A stretch of 64,000 nt of DNA from Chanos chanos (GCF_902362185.1 NC_044497.1:42097501-42161500), one strand, 5' to 3'; numbered from the stretch's first letter, positions 13,523 through 64,000 are shown. Notes: generated by a model from the letters alone, not told the origin. A program made the numbers and translations.

Positions 13523-13560
<38 letters not shown>

Positions 13561-14490: not shown

Positions 14491-14536
14491 ACAGTGACGG
14501 AGGCAGCAGGTTTCTTCTTCTTCCTCCTCTTCTGCT

Positions 14537-14572
14537 TTCTGTCTGTCTGTCTGTCTTTCTTTCTCTCTCTTC
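14537..14572. repeat. Pyrimidine-rich (TCTG)n/(TTTC)n tract
   Basis: TCTG tetranucleotides run into TTTC and CT repeats just upstream of the presumed pum3 start. The complementary purine strand produces spurious lysine/glutamate-rich open frames. Confidence 0.8.
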
Positions 14573-14579
14573 CTTTTTT

Positions 14580-16975: not shown

Positions 16976-25401
<8,426 letters not shown>

Positions 25402-27425: not shown

Positions 27426-27434
27426 TTTAGGACG

Positions 27435-27451
27435 TGACTCAAGTGACGTCA
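27435..27451 (+). promoter_or_regulatory. AP-1 site and palindromic CRE at the start of each unit
   Basis: TGACTCA (27435-27441, AP-1 consensus) and TGACGTCA (27444-27451, full CRE) stand two bases apart, 209 and 200 bp upstream of the ATG. Both are unchanged in every unit that I compared. They lie within ten bases of the unit boundary, so they have been carried along with each duplication. Confidence 0.75.
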
Positions 27452-27498
27452 TCAGCTGCCCCTATGTCGCCACACAGTGGAAGAACGTGGCATTGACA

Positions 27499-27513
27499 GG
27501 AACATTCCTGAAC
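27499..27513 (+). promoter_or_regulatory. Heat shock element (HSF binding site)
   Basis: GGAACATTCCTGAAC holds three perfect alternating pentamers (GAA-nn-TTC-nn-GAA). A further GAA stands in phase ten bases on (27520-27522), with its intervening TTC missing. The site is 145 bp before the ATG and about 39 bp before the TATA box. It recurs at the same offset before all 19 genes, which indicates heat-inducible transcription through HSF1. Confidence 0.9.
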
Positions 27514-27537
27514 TCACTCGAACACCTAGAGGCTGAC

Positions 27538-27544
27538 TATAAAA
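27538..27544 (+). promoter_or_regulatory. TATA box of hsp30 copy 1 (same offset in every unit)
   Basis: TATAAAA lies 106 bp before the ATG. The transcription start should fall near 27568, giving an A-rich leader of about 75 nt, a typical layout for heat shock leaders. Confidence 0.85.
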
Positions 27545-27643
27545 GCTGAGCGGCTCACACTCCTCAAGTCAGAACGAACAGACGCAACACTCAAACAGAG
27601 AGCAAGCAAAGAGCTAAAGAAACCAACACAACCATCCCCGAAA

Positions 27644-28267
27644 ATGCTGAGCCTTCATGGATACCAGCCTGTCTTCAGTCCACTCATGGACCTCCACTGG
27701 CCTGTGCGCAGCCTCTGGCCAGAGGTCACACCACTTTACAGCCACAGAGAGCTACTGCTGAGAAACATGCAGGAGATGAAAACTTGTCTGGAGCAGCTGG
27801 AGAAAATGCAGCACAAGGTCTTTGAAGAGCTCGACCACATGCCAGCTTCTGGGGACGTCCAACCAGTCTCCTACACTCTGGACAAGGAGGGAGACGGGTT
27901 TGCCCTGACGCTGGACGCCAGAGACTTTTCCCCAGAAGAGCTGTCTGTCAAACAGGTGGGCAGGAAACTGCAGGTCAGCGGCAAGACGGAGAAGAAGCAG
28001 GACGATGGACACGGCTCCTATTCCTACAGAGTGCAGGAGTTCAGGCGGGAGTTTGATCTGCCCGAAGGGGTGAGCCCCGAAGCGGTCACTTGTTTCATGG
28101 CTGATGGGAAGCTCCACATCCAGGCACCCAAGAATCAGATAGCCGACAAGCCGGAGAGGGTAGTCCCCATCGACTGCGGCAAAACCGTTGGGGCTGCCGT
28201 GCACTCCTCCATGACAGAGGACAGCGCCGCTGAAACGCAGAAGAACCCGGAGGAAAAACAAATCTAA
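27644..28267 (+). CDS. hsp30: Hsp30-type small heat shock protein, copy 1
   Basis: This intronless gene encodes a 207-aa ATP-independent chaperone that holds unfolding proteins in the cytosol or nucleus. The N-terminal region has the RSLWPE motif (about 22-27) seen in fish and amphibian Hsp30, followed by a leucine/glutamate-rich helix (about 36-64). The alpha-crystallin domain spans about 75-165: FALTLDARDFSPEELSVK, then the FRREFDLPEGV segment, in which R135 matches the conserved alpha-crystallin arginine (R120 of alphaB), and ADGKLHIQAP. A V-P-I motif (174-176) is the IxI/V anchor used in oligomer assembly. The tail is polar. The start has A at -3. This is the only copy with unique sequence on its left; its 3' UTR carries the CAATGTG form shared with copies 13-17. 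It resembles teleost and Xenopus Hsp30 more than HSPB1 or alpha-crystallins. Confidence 0.95.
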   Translation: MLSLHGYQPVFSPLMDLHWPVRSLWPEVTPLYSHRELLLRNMQEMKTCLEQLEKMQHKVFEELDHMPASGDVQPVSYTLDKEGDGFALTLDARDFSPEELSVKQVGRKLQVSGKTEKKQDDGHGSYSYRVQEFRREFDLPEGVSPEAVTCFMADGKLHIQAPKNQIADKPERVVPIDCGKTVGAAVHSSMTEDSAAETQKNPEEKQI

Positions 28268-28417
28268 AGACACTAAGGAACTATGCGGATAGAATTTCAA
28301 AAAGAATAAAAAAGACTGAATATTTGGTCTCTGGTTAGACCTTTTGTAAAATACCGTTCAAATGCCGGCACTTGTCGCTCAAGTGACATTTTTTGTACAT
28401 TTTTTACAATGTGAAAA

Positions 28418-28423
28418 AATAAA
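28418..28423 (+). terminator. Poly(A) signal of hsp30 copy 1 (same offset in every unit)
   Basis: AATAAA stands 151 nt after the stop codon, followed by a T-rich stretch. A second AATAAA at 28305-28310, only 38 nt after the stop, could be used as an alternative. Both recur in the other units. Confidence 0.7.
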
Positions 28424-28439
28424 ACCATCTTGTCTCTTA

Positions 28440-29386
28440 CATTTTCATGTCTTGGTTTCTTTCTTTGGGTCTCTGCTTGCCTACGCATAGGGGTACTTAG
28501 CTCTTTCACAATGACATGAAGGTTTTCTTAACACAGACAAACTTCTGACACTACAAACAAGCTCCAAAGCATAGGTCAGTCACATCCACTGGCCCGCAAT
28601 CTGTGACACCATACTTGCAGTAGCAATAATTGTATTCTTTTCACACAGGAAAGCCCATCAGGTACGCTAATATTTTCTCTACACAATAGCTTGCTGCGGT
28701 ACACACTGTTGTGGCTGCTTTCTCATTTCTCCACAAAACCTGCTGAAACGAAGGCCCGAAGAGACGCTGGGGGGGGAGAGTTTTGAGGTGTGCTACGGCT
28801 CCCTCGGAAATTTAAAAAAAAGAAGAAGAAAAAGACAGAAAAGCATTCATTTATTTAAAGTAGCAATCCACCCACATGTATCGTGCAGGTATGTTATACC
28901 GATGGACTGAAAGATTTATCAGCTGGGCTGGGGAACGCTAAAGGTACAGATGACTGAGAACTCCTGATTTAACGTGCGTTCAAAGTCAATGCACCTGAGC
29001 TTTAAAAAAATGAAAGAAAGGAAAAATTCAAAAAACACTTTCCGTTAAACAGTCTCTCAAAACCAGAGACCAGTTACACAACCAGCCAGTGCACAGTTCC
29101 TACGTTTAAAAAAATAAGGAATAACAATAGTAATAATAATAATGATAATTTTCTAAAAAAGAAAAAAAAAGTACAATCTCAGCGCTCGATGCAGAAAATG
29201 AGTCCTTCAAAGGGCCTCAAGGAAGCATTTTTGCATCATCTTTTTGTCCAAATTCAGTCTGGTGGCTTTTGATGAGTTTAAGGGAAGAGAGAAAGAAAAC
29301 AAGCAAAAGCACAGCCCCTCAAACACATTTTGTATTTTCTCAGCCAAGGAGTTTCAAGAGTATCACCACTAGACTACAGTTCCATG
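28440..29386. other. Spacer of the array unit (unit 1 as example)
   Basis: About 0.95 kb lies between the poly(A) site of one gene and the next unit start. It holds a G8 run (about 28769), an A8(GAA)n tract (about 28814), a TAA/TAATAA-rich patch (about 29120-29150) and A-rich runs. It is non-coding: a frame that opens in unit 3 only does so because of single-base indels. Most length differences between units fall in these tracts. Confidence 0.8.
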
Positions 29387-29604
29387 TTTAGGACGTGACT
29401 CAAGTGACGTCATCAGCTGCCCCTATGTCGCCACACAGTGGAAGAACGTGGCATTGACAGGAACATTCCTGAACTCACTCGAACACCTAGAGGCTGACTA
29501 TAAAAGCTGAGCGGCTCACACTCCTCAAGTCAGAACGAACAGACGCAACACTCAAACAGAGAGCAAGCAAAGAGCTAAAGAAACCAACACAACCATCCCC
29601 GAAA

Positions 29605-30228
29605 ATGCTGAGCCTTCATGGATACCAGCCTGTCTTCAGTCCACTCATGGACCTCCACTGGCCTGTGCGCAGCCTCTGGCCAGAGGTCACACCACTTTAC
29701 AGCCACAGAGAGCTACTGCTGAGAAACATGCAGGAGATGAAAACTTGTCTGGAGCAGCTGGAGAAAATGCAGCACAAGGTCTTTGAAGAGCTCGACCACA
29801 TGCCAGCTTCTGGGGACGTCCAACCAGTCTCCTACACTCTGGACAAGGAGGGAGACGGGTTTGCCCTGACGCTGGACGCCAGAGACTTTTCCCCAGAAGA
29901 GCTGTCTGTCAAACAGGTGGGCAGGAAACTGCAGGTCAGCGGCAAGACGGAGAAGAAGCAGGACGATGGACACGGCTCCTATTCCTACAGAGTGCAGGAG
30001 TTCAGGCGGGAGTTTGATCTGCCCGAAGGGGTGAGCCCCGAAGCGGTCACTTGTTTCATGGCTGATGGGAAGCTCCACATCCAGGCACCCAAGAATCAGA
30101 TAGCCGACAAGCCGGAGAGGGTAGTCCCCATCGACTGCGGCAAAACCGTTGGGGCTGCCGTGCACTCCTCCATGACAGAGGACAGCGCCGCTGAAACGCA
30201 GAAGAACCCGGAGGAAAAACAAATCTAA
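29605..30228 (+). CDS. hsp30: Hsp30-type small heat shock protein, copy 2
   Basis: The protein is identical to copy 1. From this unit to unit 12 the 3' UTR reads CAATGCG instead of CAATGTG. Its left flank is the spacer of unit 1, so this is the first copy with an array-type junction (CCATG joined to TTTAGG). Confidence 0.95.
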   Translation: MLSLHGYQPVFSPLMDLHWPVRSLWPEVTPLYSHRELLLRNMQEMKTCLEQLEKMQHKVFEELDHMPASGDVQPVSYTLDKEGDGFALTLDARDFSPEELSVKQVGRKLQVSGKTEKKQDDGHGSYSYRVQEFRREFDLPEGVSPEAVTCFMADGKLHIQAPKNQIADKPERVVPIDCGKTVGAAVHSSMTEDSAAETQKNPEEKQI

Positions 30229-31565: not shown

Positions 31566-32189
31566 ATGCTGAGCCTTCATGGATACCAGCCTGTCTTCAG
31601 TCCACTCATGGACCTCCACTGGCCTGTGCGCAGCCTCTGGCCAGAGGTCACACCACTTTACAGCCACAGAGAGCTACTGCTGAGAAACATGCAGGAGATG
31701 AAAACTTGTCTGGAGCAGCTGGAGAAAATGCAGCACAAGGTCTTTGAAGAGCTCGACCACATGCCAGCTTCTGGGGACGTCCAACCAGTCTCCTACACTC
31801 TGGACAAGGAGGGAGACGGGTTTGCCCTGACGCTGGACGCCAGAGACTTTTCCCCAGAAGAGCTGTCTGTCAAACAGGTGGGCAGGAAACTGCAGGTCAG
31901 CGGCAAGACGGAGAAGAAGCAGGACGATGGACACGGCTCCTATTCCTACAGAGTGCAGGAGTTCAGGCGGGAGTTTGATCTGCCCGAAGGGGTGAGCCCC
32001 GAAGCGGTCACTTGTTTCATGGCTGATGGGAAGCTCCACATCCAGGCACCCAAGAATCAGATAGCCGACAAGCCGGAGAGGGTAGTCCCCATCGACTGCG
32101 GCAAAACCGTTGGGGCTGCCGTGCACTCCTCCATGACAGAGGACAGCGCCGCTGAAACGCAGAAGAACCCGGAGGAAAAACAAATCTAA
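31566..32189 (+). CDS. hsp30: Hsp30-type small heat shock protein, copy 3
   Basis: The protein is identical to copy 1. The following spacer has lost one G (near 32852) and gained one A (near 32945), so the unit keeps its length of 1,961. Confidence 0.95.
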   Translation: MLSLHGYQPVFSPLMDLHWPVRSLWPEVTPLYSHRELLLRNMQEMKTCLEQLEKMQHKVFEELDHMPASGDVQPVSYTLDKEGDGFALTLDARDFSPEELSVKQVGRKLQVSGKTEKKQDDGHGSYSYRVQEFRREFDLPEGVSPEAVTCFMADGKLHIQAPKNQIADKPERVVPIDCGKTVGAAVHSSMTEDSAAETQKNPEEKQI

Positions 32190-33526: not shown

Positions 33527-34150
33527 ATGCTGAGCCTTCATGGATACCAGCCTGTCTTCAGTCCACTCATGGACCTCCACTGGCCTGTGCGCAGCCTCTG
33601 GCCAGAGGTCACACCACTTTACAGCCACAGAGAGCTACTGCTGAGAAACATGCAGGAGATGAAAACTTGTCTGGAGCAGCTGGAGAAAATGCAGCACAAG
33701 GTCTTTGAAGAGCTCGACCACATGCCAGCTTCTGGGGACGTCCAACCAGTCTCCTACACTCTGGACAAGGAGGGAGACGGGTTTGCCCTGACGCTGGACG
33801 CCAGAGACTTTTCCCCAGAAGAGCTGTCTGTCAAACAGGTGGGCAGGAAACTGCAGGTCAGCGGCAAGACGGAGAAGAAGCAGGACGATGGACACGGCTC
33901 CTATTCCTACAGAGTGCAGGAGTTCAGGCGGGAGTTTGATCTGCCCGAAGGGGTGAGCCCCGAAGCGGTCACTTGTTTCATGGCTGATGGGAAGCTCCAC
34001 ATCCAGGCACCCAAGAATCAGATAGCCGACAAGCCGGAGAGGGTAGTCCCCATCGACTGCGGCAAAACCGTTGGGGCTGCCGTGCACTCCTCCATGACAG
34101 AGGACAGCGCCGCTGAAACGCAGAAGAACCCGGAGGAAAAACAAATCTAA
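33527..34150 (+). CDS. hsp30: Hsp30-type small heat shock protein, copy 4
   Basis: The protein is identical to copy 1. I noticed no private variant in this unit; it represents the common form of units 2-12. Confidence 0.95.
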   Translation: MLSLHGYQPVFSPLMDLHWPVRSLWPEVTPLYSHRELLLRNMQEMKTCLEQLEKMQHKVFEELDHMPASGDVQPVSYTLDKEGDGFALTLDARDFSPEELSVKQVGRKLQVSGKTEKKQDDGHGSYSYRVQEFRREFDLPEGVSPEAVTCFMADGKLHIQAPKNQIADKPERVVPIDCGKTVGAAVHSSMTEDSAAETQKNPEEKQI

Positions 34151-35487: not shown

Positions 35488-36111
35488 ATGCTGAGCCTTC
35501 ATGGATACCAGCCTGTCTTCAGTCCACTCATGGACCTCCACTGGCCTGTGCGCAGCCTCTGGCCAGAGGTCACACCACTTTACAGCCACAGAGAGCTACT
35601 GCTGAGAAACATGCAGGAGATGAAAACTTGTCTGGAGCAGCTGGAGAAAATGCAGCACAAGGTCTTTGAAGAGCTCGACCACATGCCAGCTTCTGGGGAC
35701 GTCCAACCAGTCTCCTACACTCTGGACAAGGAGGGAGACGGGTTTGCCCTGACGCTGGACGCCAGAGACTTTTCCCCAGAAGAGCTGTCTGTCAAACAGG
35801 TGGGCAGGAAACTGCAGGTCAGCGGCAAGACGGAGAAGAAGCAGGACGATGGACACGGCTCCTATTCCTACAGAGTGCAGGAGTTCAGGCGGGAGTTTGA
35901 TCTGCCCGAAGGGGTGAGCCCCGAAGCGGTCACTTGTTTCATGGCTGATGGGAAGCTCCACATCCAGGCACCCAAGAATCAGATAGCCGACAAGCCGGAG
36001 AGGGTAGTCCCCATCGACTGCGGCAAAACCGTTGGGGCTGCCGTGCACTCCTCCATGACAGAGGACAGCGCCGCTGAAACGCAGAAGAACCCGGAGGAAA
36101 AACAAATCTAA
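35488..36111 (+). CDS. hsp30: Hsp30-type small heat shock protein, copy 5
   Basis: The protein is identical to copy 1, and the unit appears the same as unit 4 throughout. Confidence 0.95.
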   Translation: MLSLHGYQPVFSPLMDLHWPVRSLWPEVTPLYSHRELLLRNMQEMKTCLEQLEKMQHKVFEELDHMPASGDVQPVSYTLDKEGDGFALTLDARDFSPEELSVKQVGRKLQVSGKTEKKQDDGHGSYSYRVQEFRREFDLPEGVSPEAVTCFMADGKLHIQAPKNQIADKPERVVPIDCGKTVGAAVHSSMTEDSAAETQKNPEEKQI

Positions 36112-37448: not shown

Positions 37449-38144
37449 ATGCTGAGCCTTCATGGATACCAGCCTGTCTTCAGTCCACTCATGGACCTCC
37501 ACTGGCCTGTGCGCAGCCTCTGGCCAGAGGTCACACCACTTTACAGCCACAGAGAGCTACTGCTGAGAAACATGCAGGAGATGAAAACTTGTCTGGAGCA
37601 GCTGGAGAAAATGCAGCACAAGGTCTTTGAAGAGCTCGACCACATGCCAGCTTCTGGGGACGTCCAACCAGTCTCCTACACTCTGGACAAGGAGGGAGAC
37701 GGGTTTGCCCTGACGCTGGACGCCAGAGACTTTTCCCCAGAAGAGCTGTCTGTCAAACAGGTGGGCAGGAAACTGCAGGTCAGCGGCAAGACGGAGAAGA
37801 AGCAGGACGATGGACACGGCTCCTATTCCTACAGAGTGCAGGAGTTCAGGCGGGAGTTTGATCTGCCCGAAGGGGTGAGCCCCGAAGCGGTCACTTGTTT
37901 CATGGCTGATGGGAAGCTCCACATCCAGGCACCCAAGAATCAGATAGCCGACAAGCCGGAGAGGGTAGTCCCCATCGACTGCGGCAAAACCGTTGGGGCT
38001 GCCGTGCACTCCTCCATGACAGAGGACAGCGCCGCTGAAAACGCAGAAGAACCCGGAGGAAAAACAAATCTAAAGACACTAAGGAACTATGCGGATAGAA
38101 TTTCAAAAAGAATAAAAAAGACTGAATATTTGGTCTCTGGTTAG
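37449..38144 (+). CDS. hsp30: Hsp30-type small heat shock protein, copy 6, frameshifted C-terminal tail
   Basis: One extra A in the run at about 38038-38041 shifts the frame after residue 197. The alpha-crystallin domain, R135 and V-P-I motif remain, but the normal ten-residue tail is replaced by 34 residues read through the old 3' UTR. The new tail is rich in lysine and arginine (NYADRISKRIKKTEY) and brings the protein to 231 aa. A second extra A lies in the 3' UTR near 38168, so this unit is 1,963 bp. It could be a real variant, an early decaying copy or two base-calling errors. A stable chaperone is still plausible because the core is intact. Confidence 0.85.
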   Translation: MLSLHGYQPVFSPLMDLHWPVRSLWPEVTPLYSHRELLLRNMQEMKTCLEQLEKMQHKVFEELDHMPASGDVQPVSYTLDKEGDGFALTLDARDFSPEELSVKQVGRKLQVSGKTEKKQDDGHGSYSYRVQEFRREFDLPEGVSPEAVTCFMADGKLHIQAPKNQIADKPERVVPIDCGKTVGAAVHSSMTEDSAAENAEEPGGKTNLKTLRNYADRISKRIKKTEYLVSG

Positions 38145-39411: not shown

Positions 39412-40035
39412 ATGCTGAGCCTTCATGGATACCAGCCTGTCTTCAGTCCACTCATGGACCTCCACTGGCCTGTGCGCAGCCTCTGGCCAGAGGTCACACC
39501 ACTTTACAGCCACAGAGAGCTACTGCTGAGAAACATGCAGGAGATGAAAACTTGTCTGGAGCAGCTGGAGAAAATGCAGCACAAGGTCTTTGAAGAGCTC
39601 GACCACATGCCAGCTTCTGGGGACGTCCAACCAGTCTCCTACACTCTGGACAAGGAGGGAGACGGGTTTGCCCTGACGCTGGACGCCAGAGACTTTTCCC
39701 CAGAAGAGCTGTCTGTCAAACAGGTGGGCAGGAAACTGCAGGTCAGCGGCAAGACGGAGAAGAAGCAGGACGATGGACACGGCTCCTATTCCTACAGAGT
39801 GCAGGAGTTCAGGCGGGAGTTTGATCTGCCCGAAGGGGTGAGCCCCGAAGCGGTCACTTGTTTCATGGCTGATGGGAAGCTCCACATCCAGGCACCCAAG
39901 AATCAGATAGCCGACAAGCCGGAGAGGGTAGTCCCCATCGACTGCGGCAAAACCGTTGGGGCTGCCGTGCACTCCTCCATGACAGAGGACAGCGCCGCTG
40001 AAACGCAGAAGAACCCGGAGGAAAAACAAATCTAA
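39412..40035 (+). CDS. hsp30: Hsp30-type small heat shock protein, copy 7
   Basis: The normal reading frame and tail are present right after the frameshifted copy 6. Private changes in the spacer are C to A near 40321 and one extra A near 40876. Confidence 0.95.
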   Translation: MLSLHGYQPVFSPLMDLHWPVRSLWPEVTPLYSHRELLLRNMQEMKTCLEQLEKMQHKVFEELDHMPASGDVQPVSYTLDKEGDGFALTLDARDFSPEELSVKQVGRKLQVSGKTEKKQDDGHGSYSYRVQEFRREFDLPEGVSPEAVTCFMADGKLHIQAPKNQIADKPERVVPIDCGKTVGAAVHSSMTEDSAAETQKNPEEKQI

Positions 40036-49843: not shown

Positions 49844-51180
49844 AGACACTAAGGAACTATGCGGATAGAATTTCAAAAAGAATAAAAAAGACTGAATATT
49901 TGGTCTCTGGTTAGACCTTTTGTAAAATACCGTTCAAATGCCGGCACTTGTCGCTCAAGTGACATTTTTTGTACATTTTTTACAATGCGAAAAAATAAAA
50001 CCATCTTGTCTCTTACATTTTCATGTCTTGGTTTCTTTCTTTGGGTCTCTGCTTGCCTACGCATAGGGGTACTTAGCTCTTTCACAATGACATGAAGGTT
50101 TTCTTAACACAGACAAACTTCTGACACTACAAACAAGCTCCAAAGCATAGGTCAGTCACATCCACTGGCCCGCAATCTGTGACACCATACTTGCAGTAGC
50201 AATAATTGTATTCTTTTCACACAGGAAAGCCCATCAGGTACGCTAATATTTTCTCTACACAATAGCTTGCTGCGGTACACACTGTTGTGGCTGCTTTCTC
50301 ATTTCTCCACAAAACCTGCTGAAACGAAGGCCCGAAGAGACGCTGGGGGGGGAGAGTTTTGAGGTGTGCTACGGCTCCCTCGGAAATTTAAAAAAAAGAA
50401 GAAGAAAAAGACAGAAAAGCATTCATTTATTTAAAGTAGCAATCCACCCACATGTATCGTGCAGGTATGTTATACCGATGGACTGAAAGATTTATCAGCT
50501 GGGCTGGGGAACGCTAAAGGTACAGATGACTGAGAACTCCTGATTTAACGTGCGTTCAAAGTCAATGCACCTGAGCTTTAAAAAAATGAAAGAAAGGAAA
50601 AATTCAAAAAACACTTTCCGTTAAACAGTCTCTCAAAACCAGAGACCAGTTACACAACCAGCCAGTGCACAGTTCCTACGTTTAAAAAAATAAGGAATAA
50701 CAATAGTAATAATAATAATGATAATTTTCTAAAAAAGAAAAAAAAAGTACAATCTCAGCGCTCGATGCAGAAAATGAGTCCTTCAAAGGGCCTCAAGGAA
50801 GCATTTTTGCATCATCTTTTTGTCCAAATTCAGTCTGGTGGCTTTTGATGAGTTTAAGGGAAGAGAGAAAGAAAACAAGCAAAAGCACAGCCCCTCAAAC
50901 ACATTTTGTATTTTCTCAGCCAAGGAGTTTCAAGAGTATCACCACTAGACTACAGTTCCATGTTTAGGACGTGACTCAAGTGACGTCATCAGCTGCCCCT
51001 ATGTCGCCACACAGTGGAAGAACGTGGCATTGACAGGAACATTCCTGAACTCACTCGAACACCTAGAGGCTGACTATAAAAGCTGAGCGGCTCACACTCC
51101 TCAAGTCAGAACGAACAGACGCAACACTCAAACAGAGAGCAAGCAAAGAGCTAAAGAAACCAACACAACCATCCCCGAAA

Positions 51181-51804
51181 ATGCTGAGCCTTCATGGATA
51201 CCAGCCTGTCTTCAGTCCACTCATGGACCTCCACTGGCCTGTGCGCAGCCTCTGGCCAGAGGTCACACCACTTTACAGCCACAGAGAGCTACTGCTGAGA
51301 AACATGCAGGAGATGAAAACTTGTCTGGAGCAGCTGGAGAAAATGCAGCACAAGGTCTTTGAAGAGCTCGACCACATGCCAGCTTCTGGGGACGTCCAAC
51401 CAGTCTCCTACACTCTGGACAAGGAGGGAGACGGGTTTGCCCTGACGCTGGACGCCAGAGACTTTTCCCCAGAAGAGCTGTCTGTCAAACAGGTGGGCAG
51501 GAAACTGCAGGTCAGCGGCAAGACGGAGAAGAAGCAGGACGATGGGCACGGCTCCTATTCCTACAGAGTGCAGGAGTTCAGGCGGGAGTTTGATCTGCCC
51601 GAAGGGGTGAGCCCCGAAGCGGTCACTTGTTTCATGGCTGATGGGAAGCTCCACATCCAGGCACCCAAGAATCAGATAGCCGACAAGCCGGAGAGGGTAG
51701 TCCCCATCGACTGCGGCAAAACCGTTGGGGCTGCCGTGCACTCCTCCATGACAGAGGACAGCGCCGCTGAAACGCAGAAGAACCCGGAGGAAAAACAAAT
51801 CTAA
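51181..51804 (+). CDS. hsp30: Hsp30-type small heat shock protein, copy 13
   Basis: The protein is identical to copy 1, with a silent GGA to GGG change at Gly122. The more variable block starts here: the 3' UTR returns to CAATGTG, CCTACGC becomes CCTGCGC (about 52018-52023), and the A/GAA tract near 52350 is 3 bp shorter (A11 then one GAA), giving a 1,958-bp unit. Confidence 0.95.
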   Translation: MLSLHGYQPVFSPLMDLHWPVRSLWPEVTPLYSHRELLLRNMQEMKTCLEQLEKMQHKVFEELDHMPASGDVQPVSYTLDKEGDGFALTLDARDFSPEELSVKQVGRKLQVSGKTEKKQDDGHGSYSYRVQEFRREFDLPEGVSPEAVTCFMADGKLHIQAPKNQIADKPERVVPIDCGKTVGAAVHSSMTEDSAAETQKNPEEKQI

Positions 51805-53138
51805 AGACACTAAGGAACTATGCGGATAGAATTTCAAAAAGAATAAAAAAGACTGAATATTTGGTCTCTGGTTAGACCTTTTGTAAAATACCGTTCAAAT
51901 GCCGGCACTTGTCGCTCAAGTGACATTTTTTGTACATTTTTTACAATGTGAAAAAATAAAACCATCTTGTCTCTTACATTTTCATGTCTTGGTTTCTTTC
52001 TTTGGGTCTCTGCTTGCCTGCGCATAGGGGTACTTAGCTCTTTCACAATGACATGAAGGTTTTCTTAACACAGACAAACTTCTGACACTACAAACAAGCT
52101 CCAAAGCATAGGTCAGTCACATCCACTGGCCCGCAATCTGTGACACCATACTTGCAGTAGCAATAATTGTATTCTTTTCACACAGGAAAGCCCATCAGGT
52201 ACGCTAATATTTTCTCTACACAATAGCTTGCTGCGGTACACACTGTTGTGGCTGCTTTCTCATTTCTCCACAAAACCTGCTGAAACGAAGGCCCGAAGAG
52301 ACGCTGGGGGGGGAGAGTTTTGAGGTGTGCTACGGCTCCCTCGGAAATTTAAAAAAAAAAAGAAAAAGACAGAAAAGCATTCATTTATTTAAAGTAGCAA
52401 TCCACCCACATGTATCGTGCAGGTATGTTATACCGATGGACTGAAAGATTTATCAGCTGGGCTGGGGAACGCTAAAGGTACAGATGACTGAGAACTCCTG
52501 ATTTAACGTGCGTTCAAAGTCAATGCACCTGAGCTTTAAAAAAATGAAAGAAAGGAAAAATTCAAAAAACACTTTCCGTTAAACAGTCTCTCAAAACCAG
52601 AGACCAGTTACACAACCAGCCAGTGCACAGTTCCTACGTTTAAAAAAATAAGGAATAACAATAGTAATAATAATAATGATAATTTTCTAAAAAAGAAAAA
52701 AAAAGTACAATCTCAGCGCTCGATGCAGAAAATGAGTCCTTCAAAGGGCCTCAAGGAAGCATTTTTGCATCATCTTTTTGTCCAAATTCAGTCTGGTGGC
52801 TTTTGATGAGTTTAAGGGAAGAGAGAAAGAAAACAAGCAAAAGCACAGCCCCTCAAACACATTTTGTATTTTCTCAGCCAAGGAGTTTCAAGAGTATCAC
52901 CACTAGACTACAGTTCCATGTTTAGGACGTGACTCAAGTGACGTCATCAGCTGCCCCTATGTCGCCACACAGTGGAAGAACGTGGCATTGACAGGAACAT
53001 TCCTGAACTCACTCGAACACCTAGAGGCTGACTATAAAAGCTGAGCGGCTCACACTCCTCAAGTCAGAACGAACAGACGCAACACTCAAACAGAGAGCAA
53101 GCAAAGAGCTAAAGAAACCAACACAACCATCCCCGAAA

Positions 53139-53762
53139 ATGCTGAGCCTTCATGGATACCAGCCTGTCTTCAGTCCACTCATGGACCTCCACTGGCCTGT
53201 GCGCAGCCTCTGGCCAGAGGTCACACCACTTTACAGCCACAGAGAGCTACTGCTGAGAAACATGCAGGAGATGAAAACTTGTCTGGAGCAGCTGGAGAAA
53301 ATGCAGCACAAGGTCTTTGAAGAGCTCGACCACATGCCAGCTTCTGGGGACGTCCAACCAGTCTCCTACACTCTGGACAAGGAGGGAGACGGGTTTGCCC
53401 TGACGCTGGACGCCAGAGACTTTTCCCCAGAAGAGCTGTCTGTCAAACAGGTGGGCAGGAAGCTGCAGGTCAGCGGCAAGACGGAGAAGAAGCAGGACGA
53501 TGGACACGGCTCCTATTCCTACAGAGTGCAGGAGTTCAGGCGGGAGTTTGATCTGCCCGAAGGGGTGAGCCCCGAAGCGGTCACTTGTTTCATGGCTGAT
53601 GGGAAGCTCCACATCCAGGCACCCAAGAATCAGATAGCCGACAAGCCGGAGAGGGTAGTCCCCATCGACTGCGGCAAAACCGTTGGGGCTGCCGTGCACT
53701 CCTCCATGACAGAGGACAGCGCCGCTGAAACGCAGAAGAACCCGGAGGAAAAACAAATCTAA
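53139..53762 (+). CDS. hsp30: Hsp30-type small heat shock protein, copy 14
   Basis: The protein is identical to copy 1, with a silent AAA to AAG change at Lys108 shared only with copy 15. The 3' UTR has TACGTTT in place of TACATTT (about 53892). The spacer has nine G and an A to T change near 54622. Confidence 0.95.
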   Translation: MLSLHGYQPVFSPLMDLHWPVRSLWPEVTPLYSHRELLLRNMQEMKTCLEQLEKMQHKVFEELDHMPASGDVQPVSYTLDKEGDGFALTLDARDFSPEELSVKQVGRKLQVSGKTEKKQDDGHGSYSYRVQEFRREFDLPEGVSPEAVTCFMADGKLHIQAPKNQIADKPERVVPIDCGKTVGAAVHSSMTEDSAAETQKNPEEKQI

Positions 53763-55100
53763 AGACACTAAGGAACTATGCGGATAGAATTTCAAAAAGA
53801 ATAAAAAAGACTGAATATTTGGTCTCTGGTTAGACCTTTTGTAAAATACCGTTCAAATGCCGGCACTTGTCGCTCAAGTGACATTTTTTGTACGTTTTTT
53901 ACAATGTGAAAAAATAAAACCATCTTGTCTCTTACATTTTCATGTCTTGGTTTCTTTCTTTGGGTCTCTGCTTGCCTGCGCATAGGGGTACTTAGCTCTT
54001 TCACAATGACATGAAGGTTTTCTTAACACAGACAAACTTCTGACACTACAAACAAGCTCCAAAGCATAGGTCAGTCACATCCACTGGCCCGCAATCTGTG
54101 ACACCATACTTGCAGTAGCAATAATTGTATTCTTTTCACACAGGAAAGCCCATCAGGTACGCTAATATTTTCTCTACACAATAGCTTGCTGCGGTACACA
54201 CTGTTGTGGCTGCTTTCTCATTTCTCCACAAAACCTGCTGAAACGAAGGCCCGAAGAGACGCTGGGGGGGGGAGAGTTTTGAGGTGTGCTACGGCTCCCT
54301 CGGAAATTTAAAAAAAAGAAGAAGAAAAAGACAGAAAAGCATTCATTTATTTAAAGTAGCAATCCACCCACATGTATCGTGCAGGTATGTTATACCGATG
54401 GACTGAAAGATTTATCAGCTGGGCTGGGGAACGCTAAAGGTACAGATGACTGAGAACTCCTGATTTAACGTGCGTTCAAAGTCAATGCACCTGAGCTTTA
54501 AAAAAATGAAAGAAAGGAAAAATTCAAAAAACACTTTCCGTTAAACAGTCTCTCAAAACCAGAGACCAGTTACACAACCAGCCAGTGCACAGTTCCTACG
54601 TTTAAAAAAATAAGGAATAACTATAGTAATAATAATAATGATAATTTTCTAAAAAAGAAAAAAAAAGTACAATCTCAGCGCTCGATGCAGAAAATGAGTC
54701 CTTCAAAGGGCCTCAAGGAAGCATTTTTGCATCATCTTTTTGTCCAAATTCAGTCTGGTGGCTTTTGATGAGTTTAAGGGAAGAGAGAAAGAAAACAAGC
54801 AAAAGCACAGCCCCTCAAACACATTTTGTATTTTCTCAGCCAAGGAGTTTCAAGAGTATCACCACTAGACTACAGTTCCATGTTTAGGACGTGACTCAAG
54901 TGACGTCATCAGCTGCCCCTATGTCGCCACACAGTGGAAGAACGTGGCATTGACAGGAACATTCCTGAACTCACTCGAACACCTAGAGGCTGACTATAAA
55001 AGCTGAGCGGCTCACACTCCTCAAGTCAGAACGAACAGACGCAACACTCAAACAGAGAGCAAGCAAAGAGCTAAAGAAACCAACACAACCATCCCCGAAA

Positions 55101-55724
55101 ATGCTGAGCCTTCATGGATACCAGCCTGTCTTCAGTCCACTCATGGACCTCCACTGGCCTGTGCGCAGCCTCTGGCCAGAGGTCACACCACTTTACAGCC
55201 ACAGAGAGCTACTGCTGAGAAACATGCAGGAGATGAAAACTTGTCTGGAGCAGCTGGAGAAAATGCAGCACAAGGTCTTTGAAGAGCTCGACCACATGCC
55301 AGCTTCTGGGGACGTCCAACCAGTCTCCTACACTCTGGACAAGGAGGGAGACGGGTTTGCCCTGACGCTGGACGCCAGAGACTTTTCCCCAGAAGAGCTG
55401 TCTGTCAAACAGGTGGGCAGGAAGCTGCAGGTCAGCGGCAAGACGGAGAAGAAGCAGGACGATGGACACCGCTCCTATTCCTACAGAGTGCAGGAGTTCA
55501 GGCGGGAGTTTGATCTGCCCGAAGGGGTGAGCCCCGAAGCGGTCACTTGTTTCATGGCTGATGGGAAGCTCCACATCCAGGCACCCAAGAATCAGATAGC
55601 CGACAAGCCGGAGAGGGTAGTCCCCATCGACTGCGGCAAAACCGTTGGGGCTGCCGTGCACTCCTCCATGACAGAGGACAGCGCCGCTGAAACGCAGAAG
55701 AACCAGGAGGAAAAACAAATCTAA
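55101..55724 (+). CDS. hsp30: Hsp30-type small heat shock protein, copy 15 (G124R, P202Q)
   Basis: This is the most changed full-length protein of the array. Gly124 to Arg lies in the loop before the SYSYRV strand of the alpha-crystallin domain (GGC to CGC). Pro202 to Gln is in the polar tail (CCG to CAG). It shares the silent Lys108 AAG and TACGTTT forms with copy 14, so the two are close relatives. Confidence 0.95.
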   Translation: MLSLHGYQPVFSPLMDLHWPVRSLWPEVTPLYSHRELLLRNMQEMKTCLEQLEKMQHKVFEELDHMPASGDVQPVSYTLDKEGDGFALTLDARDFSPEELSVKQVGRKLQVSGKTEKKQDDGHRSYSYRVQEFRREFDLPEGVSPEAVTCFMADGKLHIQAPKNQIADKPERVVPIDCGKTVGAAVHSSMTEDSAAETQKNQEEKQI

Positions 55725-57061
55725 AGACACTAAGGAACTATGCGGATAGAATTTCAAAAAGAATAAAAAAGACTGAATATTTGGTCTCTGGTTAGACCTT
55801 TTGTAAAATACCGTTCAAATGCCGGCACTTGTCGCTCAAGTGACATTTTTTGTACGTTTTTTACAATGTGAAAAAATAAAACCATCTTGTCTCTTACATT
55901 TTCATGTCTTGGTTTCTTTCTTTGGGTCTCTGCTTGCCTGCGCATAGGGGTACTTAGCTCTTTCACAATGACATGAAGGTTTTCTTAACACAGACAAACT
56001 TCTGACACTACAAACAAGCTCCAAAGCATAGGTCAGTCACATCCACTGGCCCGCAATCTGTGACACCATACTTGCAGTAGCAATAATTGTATTCTTTTCA
56101 CACAGGAAAGCCCATCAGGTACGCTAATATTTTCTCTACACAATAGCTTGCTGCGGTACACACTGTTGTGGCTGCTTTCTCATTTCTCCACAAAACCTGC
56201 TGAAACGAAGGCCCGAAGAGACGCTGGGGGGGGAGAGTTTTGAGGTGTGCTACGGCTCCCTCGGAAATTTAAAAAAAAGAAGAAGAAAAAGACAGAAAAG
56301 CATTCATTTATTTAAAGTAGCAATCCACCCACATGTATCGTGCAGGTATGTTATACCGATGGACTGAAAGATTTATCAGCTGGGCTGGGGAACGCTAAAG
56401 GTACAGATGACTGAGAACTCCTGATTTAACGTGCGTTCAAAGTCAATGCACCTGAGCTTTAAAAAAATGAAAGAAAGGAAAAATTCAAAAAACACTTTCC
56501 GTTAAACAGTCTCTCAAAACCAGAGACCAGTTACACAACCAGCCAGTGCACAGTTCCTACGTTTAAAAAAATAAGGAATAACAATAGTAATAATAATAAT
56601 GATAATTTTCTAAAAAAGAAAAAAAAAGTACAATCTCAGCGCTCGATGCAGAAAATGAGTCCTTCAAAGGGCCTCAAGGAAGCATTTTTGCATCATCTTT
56701 TTGTCCAAATTCAGTCTGGTGGCTTTTGATGAGTTTAAGGGAAGAGAGAAAGAAAACAAGCAAAAGCACAGCCCCTCAAACACATTTTGTATTTTCTCAG
56801 CCAAGGAGTTTCAAGAGTATCACCACTAGACTACAGTTCCATGTTTAGGACGTGACTCAAGTGACGTCATCAGCTGCCCCTATGTCGCCACACAGTGGAA
56901 GAACGTGGCATTGACAGGAACATTCCTGAACTCACTCGAACACCTAGAGGCTGACTATAAAAGCTGAGCGGCTCACACTCCTCAAGTCAGAACGAACAGA
57001 CGCAACACTCAAACAGAGAGCAAGCAAAGAGCTAAAGAAACCAACACAACCATCCCCGAAA

Positions 57062-57685
57062 ATGCTGAGCCTTCATGGATACCAGCCTGTCTTCAGTCCA
57101 CTCATGGACCTCCACTGGCCTGTGCGCAGCCTCTGGCCAGAGGTCACACCACTTTACAGCCACAGAGAGCTACTGCTGAGAAACATGCAGGAGATGAAAA
57201 CTTGTCTGGAGCAGCTGGAGAAAATGCAGCACAAGGTCTTTGAAGAGCTCGACCACATGCCAGCTTCTGGGGACGTCCAACCAGTCTCCTACACTCTGGA
57301 CAAGGAGGGAGACGGGTTTGCCCTGACGCTGGACGCCAGAGACTTTTCCCCAGAAGAGCTGTCTGTCAAACAGGTGGGCAGGAAACTGCAGGTCAGCGGC
57401 AAGACGGAGAAGAAGCAGGACGATGGACACGGCTCCTATTCCTACAGAGTGCAGGAGTTCAGGCGGGAGTTTGATCTGCCCGAAGGGGTGAGCCCCGAAG
57501 CGGTCACTTGTTTCATGGCTGATGGGAAGCTCCACATCCAGGCACCCAAGAATCAGATAGCCGACAAGCCGGAGAGGGTAGTCCCCATCGACTGCGGCAA
57601 AACCGTTGGGGCTGCCGTGCACTCCTCCATGACAGAGGACAGCGCCGCTGAAACGCAGAAGAACCCGGAGGAAAAACAAATCTAA
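57062..57685 (+). CDS. hsp30: Hsp30-type small heat shock protein, copy 16
   Basis: The protein is identical to copy 1. The unit carries the same 3-bp-shorter A/GAA tract as unit 13, one extra T in the 3' UTR, and ten instead of eight G in the spacer. These cancel to 1,961 bp. A private C to T change lies near 58684. Confidence 0.95.
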   Translation: MLSLHGYQPVFSPLMDLHWPVRSLWPEVTPLYSHRELLLRNMQEMKTCLEQLEKMQHKVFEELDHMPASGDVQPVSYTLDKEGDGFALTLDARDFSPEELSVKQVGRKLQVSGKTEKKQDDGHGSYSYRVQEFRREFDLPEGVSPEAVTCFMADGKLHIQAPKNQIADKPERVVPIDCGKTVGAAVHSSMTEDSAAETQKNPEEKQI

Positions 57686-59022
57686 AGACACTAAGGAACT
57701 ATGCGGATAGAATTTCAAAAAGAATAAAAAAGACTGAATATTTGGTCTCTGGTTAGACCTTTTGTAAAATACCGTTCAAATGCCGGCACTTGTCGCTCAA
57801 GTGACATTTTTTTGTACGTTTTTTACAATGTGAAAAAATAAAACCATCTTGTCTCTTACATTTTCATGTCTTGGTTTCTTTCTTTGGGTCTCTGCTTGCC
57901 TGCGCATAGGGGTACTTAGCTCTTTCACAATGACATGAAGGTTTTCTTAACACAGACAAACTTCTGACACTACAAACAAGCTCCAAAGCATAGGTCAGTC
58001 ACATCCACTGGCCCGCAATCTGTGACACCATACTTGCAGTAGCAATAATTGTATTCTTTTCACACAGGAAAGCCCATCAGGTACGCTAATATTTTCTCTA
58101 CACAATAGCTTGCTGCGGTACACACTGTTGTGGCTGCTTTCTCATTTCTCCACAAAACCTGCTGAAACGAAGGCCCGAAGAGACGCTGGGGGGGGGGAGA
58201 GTTTTGAGGTGTGCTACGGCTCCCTCGGAAATTTAAAAAAAAAAAGAAAAAGACAGAAAAGCATTCATTTATTTAAAGTAGCAATCCACCCACATGTATC
58301 GTGCAGGTATGTTATACCGATGGACTGAAAGATTTATCAGCTGGGCTGGGGAACGCTAAAGGTACAGATGACTGAGAACTCCTGATTTAACGTGCGTTCA
58401 AAGTCAATGCACCTGAGCTTTAAAAAAATGAAAGAAAGGAAAAATTCAAAAAACACTTTCCGTTAAACAGTCTCTCAAAACCAGAGACCAGTTACACAAC
58501 CAGCCAGTGCACAGTTCCTACGTTTAAAAAAATAAGGAATAACAATAGTAATAATAATAATGATAATTTTCTAAAAAAGAAAAAAAAAGTACAATCTCAG
58601 CGCTCGATGCAGAAAATGAGTCCTTCAAAGGGCCTCAAGGAAGCATTTTTGCATCATCTTTTTGTCCAAATTCAGTCTGGTGGTTTTTGATGAGTTTAAG
58701 GGAAGAGAGAAAGAAAACAAGCAAAAGCACAGCCCCTCAAACACATTTTGTATTTTCTCAGCCAAGGAGTTTCAAGAGTATCACCACTAGACTACAGTTC
58801 CATGTTTAGGACGTGACTCAAGTGACGTCATCAGCTGCCCCTATGTCGCCACACAGTGGAAGAACGTGGCATTGACAGGAACATTCCTGAACTCACTCGA
58901 ACACCTAGAGGCTGACTATAAAAGCTGAGCGGCTCACACTCCTCAAGTCAGAACGAACAGACGCAACACTCAAACAGAGAGCAAGCAAAGAGCTAAAGAA
59001 ACCAACACAACCATCCCCGAAA

Positions 59023-59646
59023 ATGCTGAGCCTTCATGGATACCAGCCTGTCTTCAGTCCACTCATGGACCTCCACTGGCCTGTGCGCAGCCTCTGGCCA
59101 GAGGTCACACCACTTTACAGCCACAGAGAGCTACTGCTGAGAAACATGCAGGAGATGAAAACTTGTCTGGAGCAGCTGGAGAAAATGCAGCACAAGGTCT
59201 TTGAAGAGCTCGACCACATGCCAGCTTCTGGGGACGTCCAACCAGTCTCCTACACTCTGGACAAGGAGGGAGACGGGTTTGCCCTGACGCTGGACGCCAG
59301 AGACTTTTCCCCAGAAGAGCTGTCTGTCAAACAGGTGGGCAGGAAACTGCAGGTCAGCGGCAAGACGGAGAAGAAGCAGGACGATGGACACGGCTCCTAT
59401 TCCTACAGAGTGCAGGAGTTCAGGCGGGAGTTTGATCTGCCCGAAGGGGTGAGCCCCGAAGCGGTCACTTGTTTCATGGCTGATGGGAAGCTCCACATCC
59501 AGGCACCCAAGAATCAGATAGCCGACAAGCCGGAGAGGGTAGTCCCCATGGACTGCGGCAAAACCGTTGGGGCTGCCGTGCACTCCTCCATGACAGAGGA
59601 CAGCGCCGCTGAAACGCAGAAGAACCCGGAGGAAAAACAAATCTAA
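59023..59646 (+). CDS. hsp30: Hsp30-type small heat shock protein, copy 17 (I176M)
   Basis: ATC to ATG changes Ile176 to Met, so the C-terminal V-P-I anchor becomes V-P-M. The rest of the protein is unchanged. The 3' UTR has a private A to C near 59655. The spacer has TGACTCC in place of TGACACC and AAGAGAAG in place of AAGGGAAG, both shared with unit 18. Confidence 0.95.
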   Translation: MLSLHGYQPVFSPLMDLHWPVRSLWPEVTPLYSHRELLLRNMQEMKTCLEQLEKMQHKVFEELDHMPASGDVQPVSYTLDKEGDGFALTLDARDFSPEELSVKQVGRKLQVSGKTEKKQDDGHGSYSYRVQEFRREFDLPEGVSPEAVTCFMADGKLHIQAPKNQIADKPERVVPMDCGKTVGAAVHSSMTEDSAAETQKNPEEKQI

Positions 59647-60984
59647 AGACACTACGGAACTATGCGGATAGAATTTCAAAAAGAATAAAAAAGACTGAAT
59701 ATTTGGTCTCTGGTTAGACCTTTTGTAAAATACCGTTCAAATGCCGGCACTTGTCGCTCAAGTGACATTTTTTGTACATTTTTTACAATGTGAAAAAATA
59801 AAACCATCTTGTCTCTTACATTTTCATGTCTTGGTTTCTTTCTTTGGGTCTCTGCTTGCCTACGCATAGGGGTACTTAGCTCTTTCACAATGACATGAAG
59901 GTTTTCTTAACACAGACAAACTTCTGACACTACAAACAAGCTCCAAAGCATAGGTCAGTCACATCCACTGGCCCGCAATCTGTGACTCCATACTTGCAGT
60001 AGCAATAATTGTATTCTTTTCACACAGGAAAGCCCATCAGGTACGCTAATATTTTCTCTACACAATAGCTTGCTGCGGTACACACTGTTGTGGCTGCTTT
60101 CTCATTTCTCCACAAAACCTGCTGAAACGAAGGCCCGAAGAGACGCTGGGGGGGGAGAGTTTTGAGGTGTGCTACGGCTCCCTCGGAAATTTAAAAAAAA
60201 GAAGAAGAAAAAGACAGAAAAGCATTCATTTATTTAAAGTAGCAATCCACCCACATGTATCGTGCAGGTATGTTATACCGATGGACTGAAAGATTTATCA
60301 GCTGGGCTGGGGAACGCTAAAGGTACAGATGACTGAGAACTCCTGATTTAACGTGCGTTCAAAGTCAATGCACCTGAGCTTTAAAAAAATGAAAGAAAGG
60401 AAAAATTCAAAAAACACTTTCCGTTAAACAGTCTCTCAAAACCAGAGACCAGTTACACAACCAGCCAGTGCACAGTTCCTACGTTTAAAAAAATAAGGAA
60501 TAACAATAGTAATAATAATAATGATAATTTTCTAAAAAAAGAAAAAAAAAGTACAATCTCAGCGCTCGATGCAGAAAATGAGTCCTTCAAAGGGCCTCAA
60601 GGAAGCATTTTTGCATCATCTTTTTGTCCTAATTCAGTCTGGTGGCTTTTGATGAGTTTAAGAGAAGAGAGAAAGAAAACAAGCAAAAGCACAGCCCCTC
60701 AAACACATTTTGTATTTTCTCAGCCAAGGAGTTTCAAGAGTATCACCACTAGACTACAGTTCCATGTTTAGGACGTGACTCAAGTGACGTCATCAGCTGC
60801 CCCTATGTCGCCACACAGTGGAAGAACGTGGCATTGACAGGAACATTCCTGAACTCACTCGAACACCTAGAGGCTGACTATAAAAGCTGAGCGGCTCACA
60901 CTCCTCAAGTCAGAACGAACAGACGCAACACTCAAACAGAGAGCAAGCAAAGAGCTAAAGAAACCAACACAACCATCCCCGAAA

Positions 60985-61617
60985 ATGCTGAGCCTTCATG
61001 GATACCAGCCTGTCTTCAGTCCACTCATGGACCTCCACTGGCCTGTGCGCAGCCTCTGGCCAGAGGTCACACCACTTTACAGCCACAGAGAGCTACTGCT
61101 GAGAAACATGCAGGAGATGAAAACTTGTCTGGAGCAGCTGGAGAAAATGCAGCACAAGGTCTTTGAAGAGCTCGACCACATGCCAGCTTCTGGGGACGTC
61201 CAACCAGTCTCCTACACTCTGGACAAGGAGGGAGACGGGTTTGCCCTGACGCTGGACGCCAGAGACTTTTCCCCAGAAGAGCTGTCTGTCAAACAGGTGG
61301 GCAGGAAACTGCAGGTCAGCGGCAAGACGGAGAAGAAGCAGGACGATGGACACGGCTCCTATTCCTACAGAGTGCAGGAGTTCAGGCGGGAGTTTGATCT
61401 GCCCGAAGGGGTGAGCCCCGAAGCGGTCACTTGTTTCATGGCTGATGGGAAGCTCCACATCCAGGCACCCAAGAATCAGATAGCCGACAAGCCGGAGAGG
61501 GTAGTCCCCATCGACTGCGGCAAAACCGTTGGGGCTGCCGTGCACTCCTCCATGACAGAGGACAGCGCCGCTGAAACGCAGAAGAACCCGGAGGAAAAAC
61601 AAATCAAAAGACACTAA
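60985..61617 (+). CDS. hsp30: Hsp30-type small heat shock protein, copy 18 (stop loss, +3 residues)
   Basis: The usual TAA is changed to AAA at 61606-61608. Translation continues for Lys-Arg-His to the next in-frame TAA, giving 210 aa. The domain core and V-P-I motif are intact, so function is probably unaffected. The 3' UTR combines TACGTTT (as in copies 14-16) with CAATGCG (as in copies 2-12 and 19), a recombinant-looking mix. Confidence 0.95.
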   Translation: MLSLHGYQPVFSPLMDLHWPVRSLWPEVTPLYSHRELLLRNMQEMKTCLEQLEKMQHKVFEELDHMPASGDVQPVSYTLDKEGDGFALTLDARDFSPEELSVKQVGRKLQVSGKTEKKQDDGHGSYSYRVQEFRREFDLPEGVSPEAVTCFMADGKLHIQAPKNQIADKPERVVPIDCGKTVGAAVHSSMTEDSAAETQKNPEEKQIKRH

Positions 61618-62945
61618 GGAACTATGCGGATAGAATTTCAAAAAGAATAAAAAAGACTGAATATTTGGTCTCTGGTTAGACCTTTTGTAAAATACCGTTC
61701 AAATGCCGGCACTTGTCGCTCAAGTGACATTTTTTGTACGTTTTTTACAATGCGAAAAAATAAAACCATCTTGTCTCTTACATTTTCATGTCTTGGTTTC
61801 TTTCTTTGGGTCTCTGCTTGCCTACGCATAGGGGTACTTAGCTCTTTCACAATGACATGAAGGTTTTCTTAACACAGACAAACTTCTGACACTACAAACA
61901 AGCTCCAAAGCATAGGTCAGTCACATCCACTGGCCCGCAATCTGTGACTCCATACTTGCAGTAGCAATAATTGTATTCTTTTCACACAGGAAAGCCCATC
62001 AGGTACGCTAATATTTTCTCTACACAATAGCTTGCTGCGGTACACACTGTTGTGGCTGCTTTCTCATTTCTCCACAAAACCTGCTGAAACGAAGGCCCGA
62101 AGAGACGCTGGGGGGGGAGAGTTTTGAGGTGTGCTACGGCTCCCTCGGAAATTTAAAAAAAAGAAGAAGAAAAAGACAGAAAAGCATTCATTTATTTAAA
62201 GTAGCAATCCACCCACATGTATCGTGCAGGTATGTTATACCGATGGACTGAAAGATTTATCAGCTGGGCTGGGGAACGCTAAAGGTACAGATGACTGAGA
62301 ACTCCTGATTTAACGTGCGTTCAAAGTCAATGCACCTGAGCTTTAAAAAAATGAAAGAAAGGAAAAATTCAAAAAACACTTTCCGTTAAACAGTCTCTCA
62401 AAACCAGAGACCAGTTACACAACCAGCCAGTGCACAGTTCCTACAATTAAAAAAATAAGGAATAACAATAGTAATAATAATAATGATAATTTTCTAAAAA
62501 AGAAAAAAAAAGTACAATCTCAGCGCTCGATGCAGAAAATGAGTCCTTCAAAGGGCCTCAAGGAAGCATTTTTGCATCATCTTTTTGTCCAAATTCAGTC
62601 TGGTGGCTTTTGATGAGTTTAAGAGAAGAGAGAAAGAAAACAAGCAAAAGCACAGCCCCTCAAACACATTTTGTATTTTCTCAGCCAAGGAGTTTCAAGA
62701 GTATCACCACTAGACTACAGTTCCATGTTTAGGACGTGACTCAAGTGACGTCATCAGCTGCCCCTATGTCGCCACACAGTGGAAGAACGTGGCATTGACA
62801 GGAACATTCCTGAACTCACTCGAACACCTAGAGGCTGACTATAAAAGCTGAGCGGCTCACACTCCTCAAGTCAGAACGAACAGACGCAACACTCAAACAG
62901 AGAGCAAGCAAAGAGCTAAAGAAACCAACACAACCATCCCCGAAA

Positions 62946-63569
62946 ATGCTGAGCCTTCATGGATACCAGCCTGTCTTCAGTCCACTCATGGACCTCCACT
63001 GGCCTGTGCGCAGCCTCTGGCCAGAGGTCACACCACTTTACAGCCACAGAGAGCTACTGCTGAGAAACATGCAGGAGATGAAAACTTGTCTGGAGCAGCT
63101 GGAGAAAATGCAGCACAAGGTCTTTGAAGAGCTCGACCACATGCCAGCTTCTGGGGACGTCCAACCAGTCTCCTACACTCTGGACAAGGAGGGAGACGGG
63201 TTTGCCCTGACGCTGGACGCCAGAGACTTTTCCCCAGAAGAGCTGTCTGTCAAACAGGTGGGCAGGAAACTGCAGGTCAGCGGCAAGACGGAGAAGAAGC
63301 AGGACGATGGACACGGCTCCTATTCCTACAGAGTGCAGGAGTTCAGGCGGGAGTTTGATCTGCCCGAAGGGGTGAGCCCCGAAGCGGTCACTTGTTTCAT
63401 GGCTGATGGGAAGCTCCACATCCAGGCACCCAAGAATCAGATAGCCGACAAGCCGGAGAGGGTAGTCCCCATCGACTGCGGCAAAACCGTTGGGGCTGCC
63501 GTGCACTCCTCCATGACAGAGGACAGCGCCGCTGAAACGCAGAAGAACCCGGAGGAAAAACAAATCTAA
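62946..63569 (+). CDS. hsp30: Hsp30-type small heat shock protein, copy 19
   Basis: The protein is identical to copy 1. The spacer just before this unit has CTACAATTA in place of CTACGTTTA near 62444. The unit's own spacer has A to G near 63959 and is cut by the window edge at 64000, so the array goes on. Confidence 0.95.
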   Translation: MLSLHGYQPVFSPLMDLHWPVRSLWPEVTPLYSHRELLLRNMQEMKTCLEQLEKMQHKVFEELDHMPASGDVQPVSYTLDKEGDGFALTLDARDFSPEELSVKQVGRKLQVSGKTEKKQDDGHGSYSYRVQEFRREFDLPEGVSPEAVTCFMADGKLHIQAPKNQIADKPERVVPIDCGKTVGAAVHSSMTEDSAAETQKNPEEKQI

Positions 63570-64000
63570 AGACACTAAGGAACTATGCGGATAGAATTTC
63601 AAAAAGAATAAAAAAGACTGAATATTTGGTCTCTGGTTAGACCTTTTGTAAAATACCGTTCAAATGCCGGCACTTGTCGCTCAAGTGACATTTTTTGTAC
63701 ATTTTTTACAATGCGAAAAAATAAAACCATCTTGTCTCTTACATTTTCATGTCTTGGTTTCTTTCTTTGGGTCTCTGCTTGCCTACGCATAGGGGTACTT
63801 AGCTCTTTCACAATGACATGAAGGTTTTCTTAACACAGACAAACTTCTGACACTACAAACAAGCTCCAAAGCATAGGTCAGTCACATCCACTGGCCCGCA
63901 ATCTGTGACACCATACTTGCAGTAGCAATAATTGTATTCTTTTCACACAGGAAAGCCCGTCAGGTACGCTAATATTTTCTCTACACAATAGCTTGCTGCG

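Follow-up and report, generated by a model that had tools for sequence, protein, structure and literature searches.

One edge of a regular tandem array of hsp30-type small heat shock protein genes, probably retained for stress-inducible dosage

The window (the whole stretch of DNA analysed, 64,000 nucleotides) probably captures one end of an array in which heat-inducible hsp30-type genes follow each other in tandem, in a vertebrate that is likely a fish, and which has been kept for stress-inducible dosage. The array lies on the + strand at 27426–64000 and consists of 18 full units of 1958–1963 bp followed by 1273 bp of a nineteenth, as defined by unit self-comparison. Units run head to tail with 99.5–100% identity to unit 2, and units 2, 4, 5, 9 and 12 show no difference across all 1961 bp. 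An earlier note on this DNA had described 19 head-to-tail units of ∼1,961 bp, each with a complete intronless small heat shock protein gene, and had counted 15 of 19 predicted proteins as identical with copies 6, 15, 17 and 18 as the exceptions; the 19 open reading frames (ORFs) and the copy comparison bear out both statements. Spacing between successive ORF starts is nearly constant (1961, 1961, 1961, 1961, 1961, 1963, 1962, 1961 and 1961 bp for copies 1–10, and 1962, 1962, 1961, 1958, 1962, 1961, 1961, 1962 and 1961 bp for copies 10–19), and a chance origin of the array is excluded. The left edge falls exactly at 27426, with the unit match extending 0 bases into the flank. Unit 19 is cut by the end of the window, with its ORF still complete, and as the array is still running at position 64000, 19 is a lower bound for the copy number and the right end is no boundary. 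What can be read directly from the window is the array itself, the presence of an intact predicted promoter in front of every copy, how nearly identical the copies are and the reticulate pattern of their variants. Duplication and exchange are supported by the anatomy of the units and by the reticulate variants, and retention for dosage is what we infer from the whole.

Every unit contains one intronless ORF (207 codons in all except copies 6 and 18), and its product matches the alpha-crystallin/HSP20 family (PF00011) in Pfam with a score of 67.6 bits where the curated cut-off is 20.8 (E = 1e-18, residues 81–176). The best PDB match over the same residues is alphaB-crystallin; the domain core is alignable, and the C-terminal [I/V]-X-[I/V] motif is present, with ‘pervvpi’ (‘VVPI’) aligning with ‘PERTIPI’ of alphaB-crystallin. 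Similarity to the small heat shock proteins in the PDB (HSPB1, 2, 4, 5, 6, 7 and 8) is confined to the domain. Judged by these matches, the array gene is a member of the small heat shock protein family, and Hsp30 type is the putative name for it: the length, the intronless coding sequence (CDS) and the N-terminus would agree with Hsp30. Relatives of the protein were absent from bacterial and archaeal genome contigs and from viral contigs, as expected for a vertebrate gene, and no mention of its N-terminal motif was found in the literature covered. Teleosts do have Hsp30, with independent duplications (PMC8945262), and the Hsp30 subfamily is present in oviparous animals and missing from mammals (PMC5101479). 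The coding sequences of standard length are located at 27644–28267 (copy 1, 207 aa; ORF and Pfam), 29605–30228 (copy 2), 31566–32189 (copy 3), 33527–34150 (copy 4), 35488–36111 (copy 5), 39412–40035 (copy 7), 41374–41997 (copy 8), 43335–43958 (copy 9), 45296–45919 (copy 10), 47258–47881 (copy 11), 49220–49843 (copy 12), 51181–51804 (copy 13), 53139–53762 (copy 14), 55101–55724 (copy 15), 57062–57685 (copy 16), 59023–59646 (copy 17) and 62946–63569 (copy 19), all on the + strand and called as ORFs, as are copies 6 and 18 described below.

The gene is a single open CDS accompanied by a heat-shock element, a TATA box and two AATAAA signals, and its anatomy is conveniently read from unit 1 (27426–29386, + strand), in which a promoter and leader (27426–27643) precede the CDS (27644–28267), a 3′ UTR reaching to ∼28445 and a spacer reaching to 29386. 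The promoter of every unit carries an AP-1-like TGACTCA (27435–27441 in unit 1) and a CRE-like TGACGTCA (27444–27451), both of which are consensus matches only. A perfect three-box heat-shock element, GAACATTCCTGAA, was located by motif search at 27500–27512 in unit 1, and the same element recurs on the + strand in units 2–10 (29461, 31422, 33383, 35344, 37305, 39268, 41230, 43191 and 45152) and in units 11–19 (47114, 49076, 51037, 52995, 54957, 56918, 58879, 60841 and 62802). The whole window thus holds 19 such elements, one per unit and 0 outside the array, where shuffled sequences lead one to expect 1.1, and with a perfect element in each unit and none elsewhere in the window, heat inducibility of the array genes is well predicted. 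In each unit a TATA box (TATAAAA, 27538–27544 in unit 1) begins 38 bp after the first base of the heat-shock element. The putative 5′ leader (27568–27643, with the transcription start placed from the TATA box) is 49% A and 5% T and is weakly folded; its folding is ordinary for its composition (z = 1.2), so that only the composition is notable. A-rich, weakly folded leaders are typical of heat-shock mRNAs. Two AATAAA polyadenylation signals per unit lie after the stop codon (28305 and 28418 in unit 1, spanning 28305–28423). The spacer, 0.94 kb per unit, gave no Pfam match in six frames and no CTCF-like site by a simple consensus, and it did not resemble the left flank, leaving hidden genes, insulators and captured flank unsupported. 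No RNA families were detected in the window and no tandem repeats at a score of 50 in the array; the spacer holds only weak AAT and AAG tracts, in which one AAG step varies (units 13 and 16). Strong induction of such genes is documented in other fish, with hsp30 raised >10-fold in heated medaka embryos (PMC6688511) and two hsp30-like transcripts ranking first and third in anoxic embryos of an annual killifish (PMC5819677).

In the mechanism we propose, the amplified unit would be one whole gene cassette, comprising the AP-1/CRE-like site, the HSF element, the TATA box, the leader, the CDS, the poly(A) signals and the spacer. An initial tandem duplication would have opened the way to unequal sister-chromatid exchange and to gene conversion; between them these would expand the array and keep it homogeneous. 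HSF1 would then drive every copy on heat, giving an output proportional to copy number, and the array would be retained since extra Hsp30 chaperone is useful under stress.

Variation among the copies is sparse and unevenly distributed, with 19 substitution sites and 11 indel sites among the units. The unit opens with 541 bp (27426–27966 in unit 1) that make up the promoter, the leader and the first 323 bp of the CDS and that contain 0 substitutions or indels in 19 of 19 copies. Units 1–12 have two variable substitution sites in 23.5 kb (mean pairwise difference 0.017%) and are so alike, with several of their differences being 1-nt indels, that the assembled count is least certain there. Units 13–18 (50963–62727, + strand) diverge by a mean of 0.37% and carry shared, recombined variants, and unit 19, as far as it lies in the window, again resembles units 1–12. 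On this evidence units 13–18 are an older, recombined island between the near-uniform units 1–12 and the similar unit 19. Several pairs of non-coding sites within the island show all four gametes, as exchange between copies predicts; one of these sites, unit position 987, is a CpG, and recurrent mutation is an alternative there. Units 13 and 16 were also seen to share a 3-bp AAG deletion, and units 14/15 and 17/18 have other variants in common. If the mutation rate is taken as 1e-8 per base and generation, the spread of units 1–12 would date back on the order of ten thousand generations and their split from units 13–18 on the order of a hundred thousand, figures that are illustrative because conversion resets the clock.

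Within the CDS, copy 15 carries G124R and P202Q, copy 17 carries I176M, and copy 18 (60985–61617, 210 aa) has lost its stop codon (TAA to AAA, +3 aa), all by copy comparison. Copy 6 (37449–38144, 231 aa) has a 1-nt insertion at codon 197/198 that shifts the frame after residue 197 and alters the C-terminus, with the alpha-crystallin domain intact by Pfam. The loss of the stop in one copy and of the C-terminal frame in another means that at least some copies drift. As a separate observation, copy 6 has two 1-nt A insertions in short A runs, at unit positions 807 and 934, and 0 substitutions, and these could be either a genuine drifting copy or consensus error. Variable sites in the CDS comprise two synonymous, three missense and one stop-loss (22% synonymous is expected at random); missense changes are not depleted, and the CDS changes say nothing clear on selection acting on individual copies. 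The earlier note had read the array as dosage amplification that may reflect selection for a large, fast Hsp30 response. The small heat shock protein gene, an intact heat-shock promoter per unit and a recent, homogenised amplification are supported. Heat induction, a large or fast response and positive selection for dosage are hypotheses, and the CDS changes carry no clear purifying signal.

The tolerated missense and stop-loss changes are also what would be seen if copy number had drifted by unequal crossing-over with no dosage benefit, the gene being a passenger in a satellite-like 2-kb repeat. Near-uniform units 1–12 are likewise expected from a recent neutral amplification, and variant density is similar in the spacer (13 substitution sites per 1119 bp) and the CDS (6 per 624 bp). 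Set against this are the alpha-crystallin domain, open in 19 of 19 genes, the promoter, unchanged in as many, although recency alone explains much of that, and the position of the invariant stretch, which coincides with the promoter and the 5′ half of the CDS and not with some arbitrary piece of spacer. With the unit treated as a circle, the longest interval between neighbouring substitution sites is 645 bp (p = 0.014 under random placement), a value to be read with the region having been picked after the data were seen, for which the test compensates only in part. Nothing but this invariant promoter and 5′ half hints at constraint, and gene conversion, or a bias in it, could also have produced the pattern. 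We regard neutral expansion as unlikely, if the most substantial of the alternatives, and favour retention for stress-inducible dosage.

The five units identical over all 1961 bp bear on another explanation, that a few real units were over-expanded by the assembler, above all in units 1–12, where several differences are 1-nt indels, mostly in homopolymers, and possibly consensus errors. That the copies are distinct genomic loci and not an assembly product is argued from internal variants only: shared substitutions set units 13–18 apart, private ones do the same for units 1 and 7 and, should the indels be genuine, at least one marker would fall in every three units (∼6 kb), within the reach of long reads. 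Near-identical arrays are, moreover, more often collapsed than expanded by assemblers, and an artefact of this kind, if a serious rival like neutral expansion, appears improbable. Location alone would suggest a sex-linked or haplotype-specific amplicon, one that is fixed on a single haplotype and that conversion preserves on account of the chromosome it sits on rather than of heat stress: kcnv2 and pum3, found in the left flank, are neighbours of vldlr and dmrt1 in many vertebrates, and this block has become sex-linked in some lineages. No sign of such linkage is seen in the window and each unit carries a full stress promoter, which makes this by far the least credible reading. Returning to the preferred account of a dosage array, its boldest form is conceivable, if on the doubtful side: copies all alike in function would number in the tens and far exceed 19, selection would hold their promoters invariant, and copy number would vary with thermal habitat between individuals or populations, as a heat-stress counterpart of the antifreeze gene arrays of fish.

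Hsp30 multigene families have reportedly been described in Poeciliopsis (by Norris in 1997) and in Xenopus (by Krone in 1992). Like the array gene, the Hsp30 genes of fish and Xenopus are intronless, encode small heat shock proteins of ∼200 aa, have a stress-inducible promoter, as is predicted for the array, and are multicopy in many non-mammalian genomes. The sea bass Lateolabrax has 12 sHsp genes in total, a few of them Hsp30-like and with differing motif content (PMC8945262). Compared with Lateolabrax Hsp30L, the present locus brings at least 19 copies together in a single array with a regular unit of 1.96 kb, and 15 of these copies encode one identical protein.

Cold-related amplification of copy number, as in antifreeze genes, is a classic example of gene dosage as an adaptation in fish, and an equally regular array of heat-shock chaperone genes would be its natural counterpart for heat or hypoxia. 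The type I antifreeze array of flounder consists of 12 near-identical tandem repeats of 11.2 kb, for which unequal crossing-over was proposed, and the alleles of one fish had 33 and 4 genes, with dosage following latitude (PMC9122973). Both arrays place a fish stress-protein gene in near-identical tandem repeats, and what characterises the antifreeze type, namely a long head-to-tail run of near-identical copies that all have a promoter of their own and an intact ORF, is found here as well; the flounder array differs in its protein and stress, in its longer two-gene unit and in having had its copy number checked by BAC clones and alleles. HSP83 of Leishmania is a head-to-tail heat-shock gene array whose copy number varies between strains and species (PMC8831618), although it belongs to a protist and is an HSP90-class gene. 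In the ‘high-speed rail’ model, the units have to be joined by a short repeat whose copy number varies (PMC8831618). Such a joining repeat is not clearly evident in the hsp30 array, where the spacer holds only the weak tracts. The hsp70 cluster of Drosophila has a few copies only. The HSP70 cluster of camel consists of clustered heat-shock genes with heat-shock elements (PMC3212538). The Drosophila and camel clusters resemble the array in the clustering of heat-shock genes with heat-shock elements, but differ in having only a few copies and no regular array of identical short units.

A comparable vertebrate array of small heat shock protein genes of such size was not found in the literature covered, a scope with most subscription journals outside it, which is weak evidence of absence. 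Arrays of this kind are already known from the antifreeze and Leishmania HSP83 loci, and what is new here is the invariant 541 bp and the island of units 13–18. The private variants of copies 1, 6, 7 and 13–18 let RNA-seq tell which copies fire, and in fish genomes assembled from short reads, both hsp30 counts and expression values may be badly collapsed.

The left flank is ordinary vertebrate sequence with the order kcnv2, pum3, a carm1-like gene and then the array. No diverged hsp30 relic was found in this flank (best tblastn E = 0.61). A kcnv2-like channel gene on the + strand (2521–4775; Pfam and PDB for the channel family), which we take to be KCNV2 rather than another silent Kv subunit, has two coding exons (exon 1 from 2521 to ∼3860, exon 2 ending at 4775) split immediately before the TVGYGD pore motif. 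Upstream of it, a weak match to Flavi_E_stem at 1–2518 (E = 0.033, below the cut-off) was set aside as chance. On the − strand, pum3 (KIAA0020/Puf-A; 8225–13849) has its CPL domain at ∼8.3–8.5 kb, a PDB match to KIAA0020 and a basic, N-terminal-looking exon at 13571–13849. The CARM1-like arginine methyltransferase gene (14000–25452, − strand) shows domains at ∼23.9, 22.2 and 18.4 kb and a possible first exon near 25.2–25.45 kb; a MATH match at 25210–25452 (E = 0.059) was treated as chance. An abrupt junction ∼2 kb upstream of this gene marks the start of the array, which points away from the gene. Because human CARM1 is on a different chromosome from PUM3 and KCNV2, the CARM1-like gene may be a retained ohnolog that was lost in mammals.
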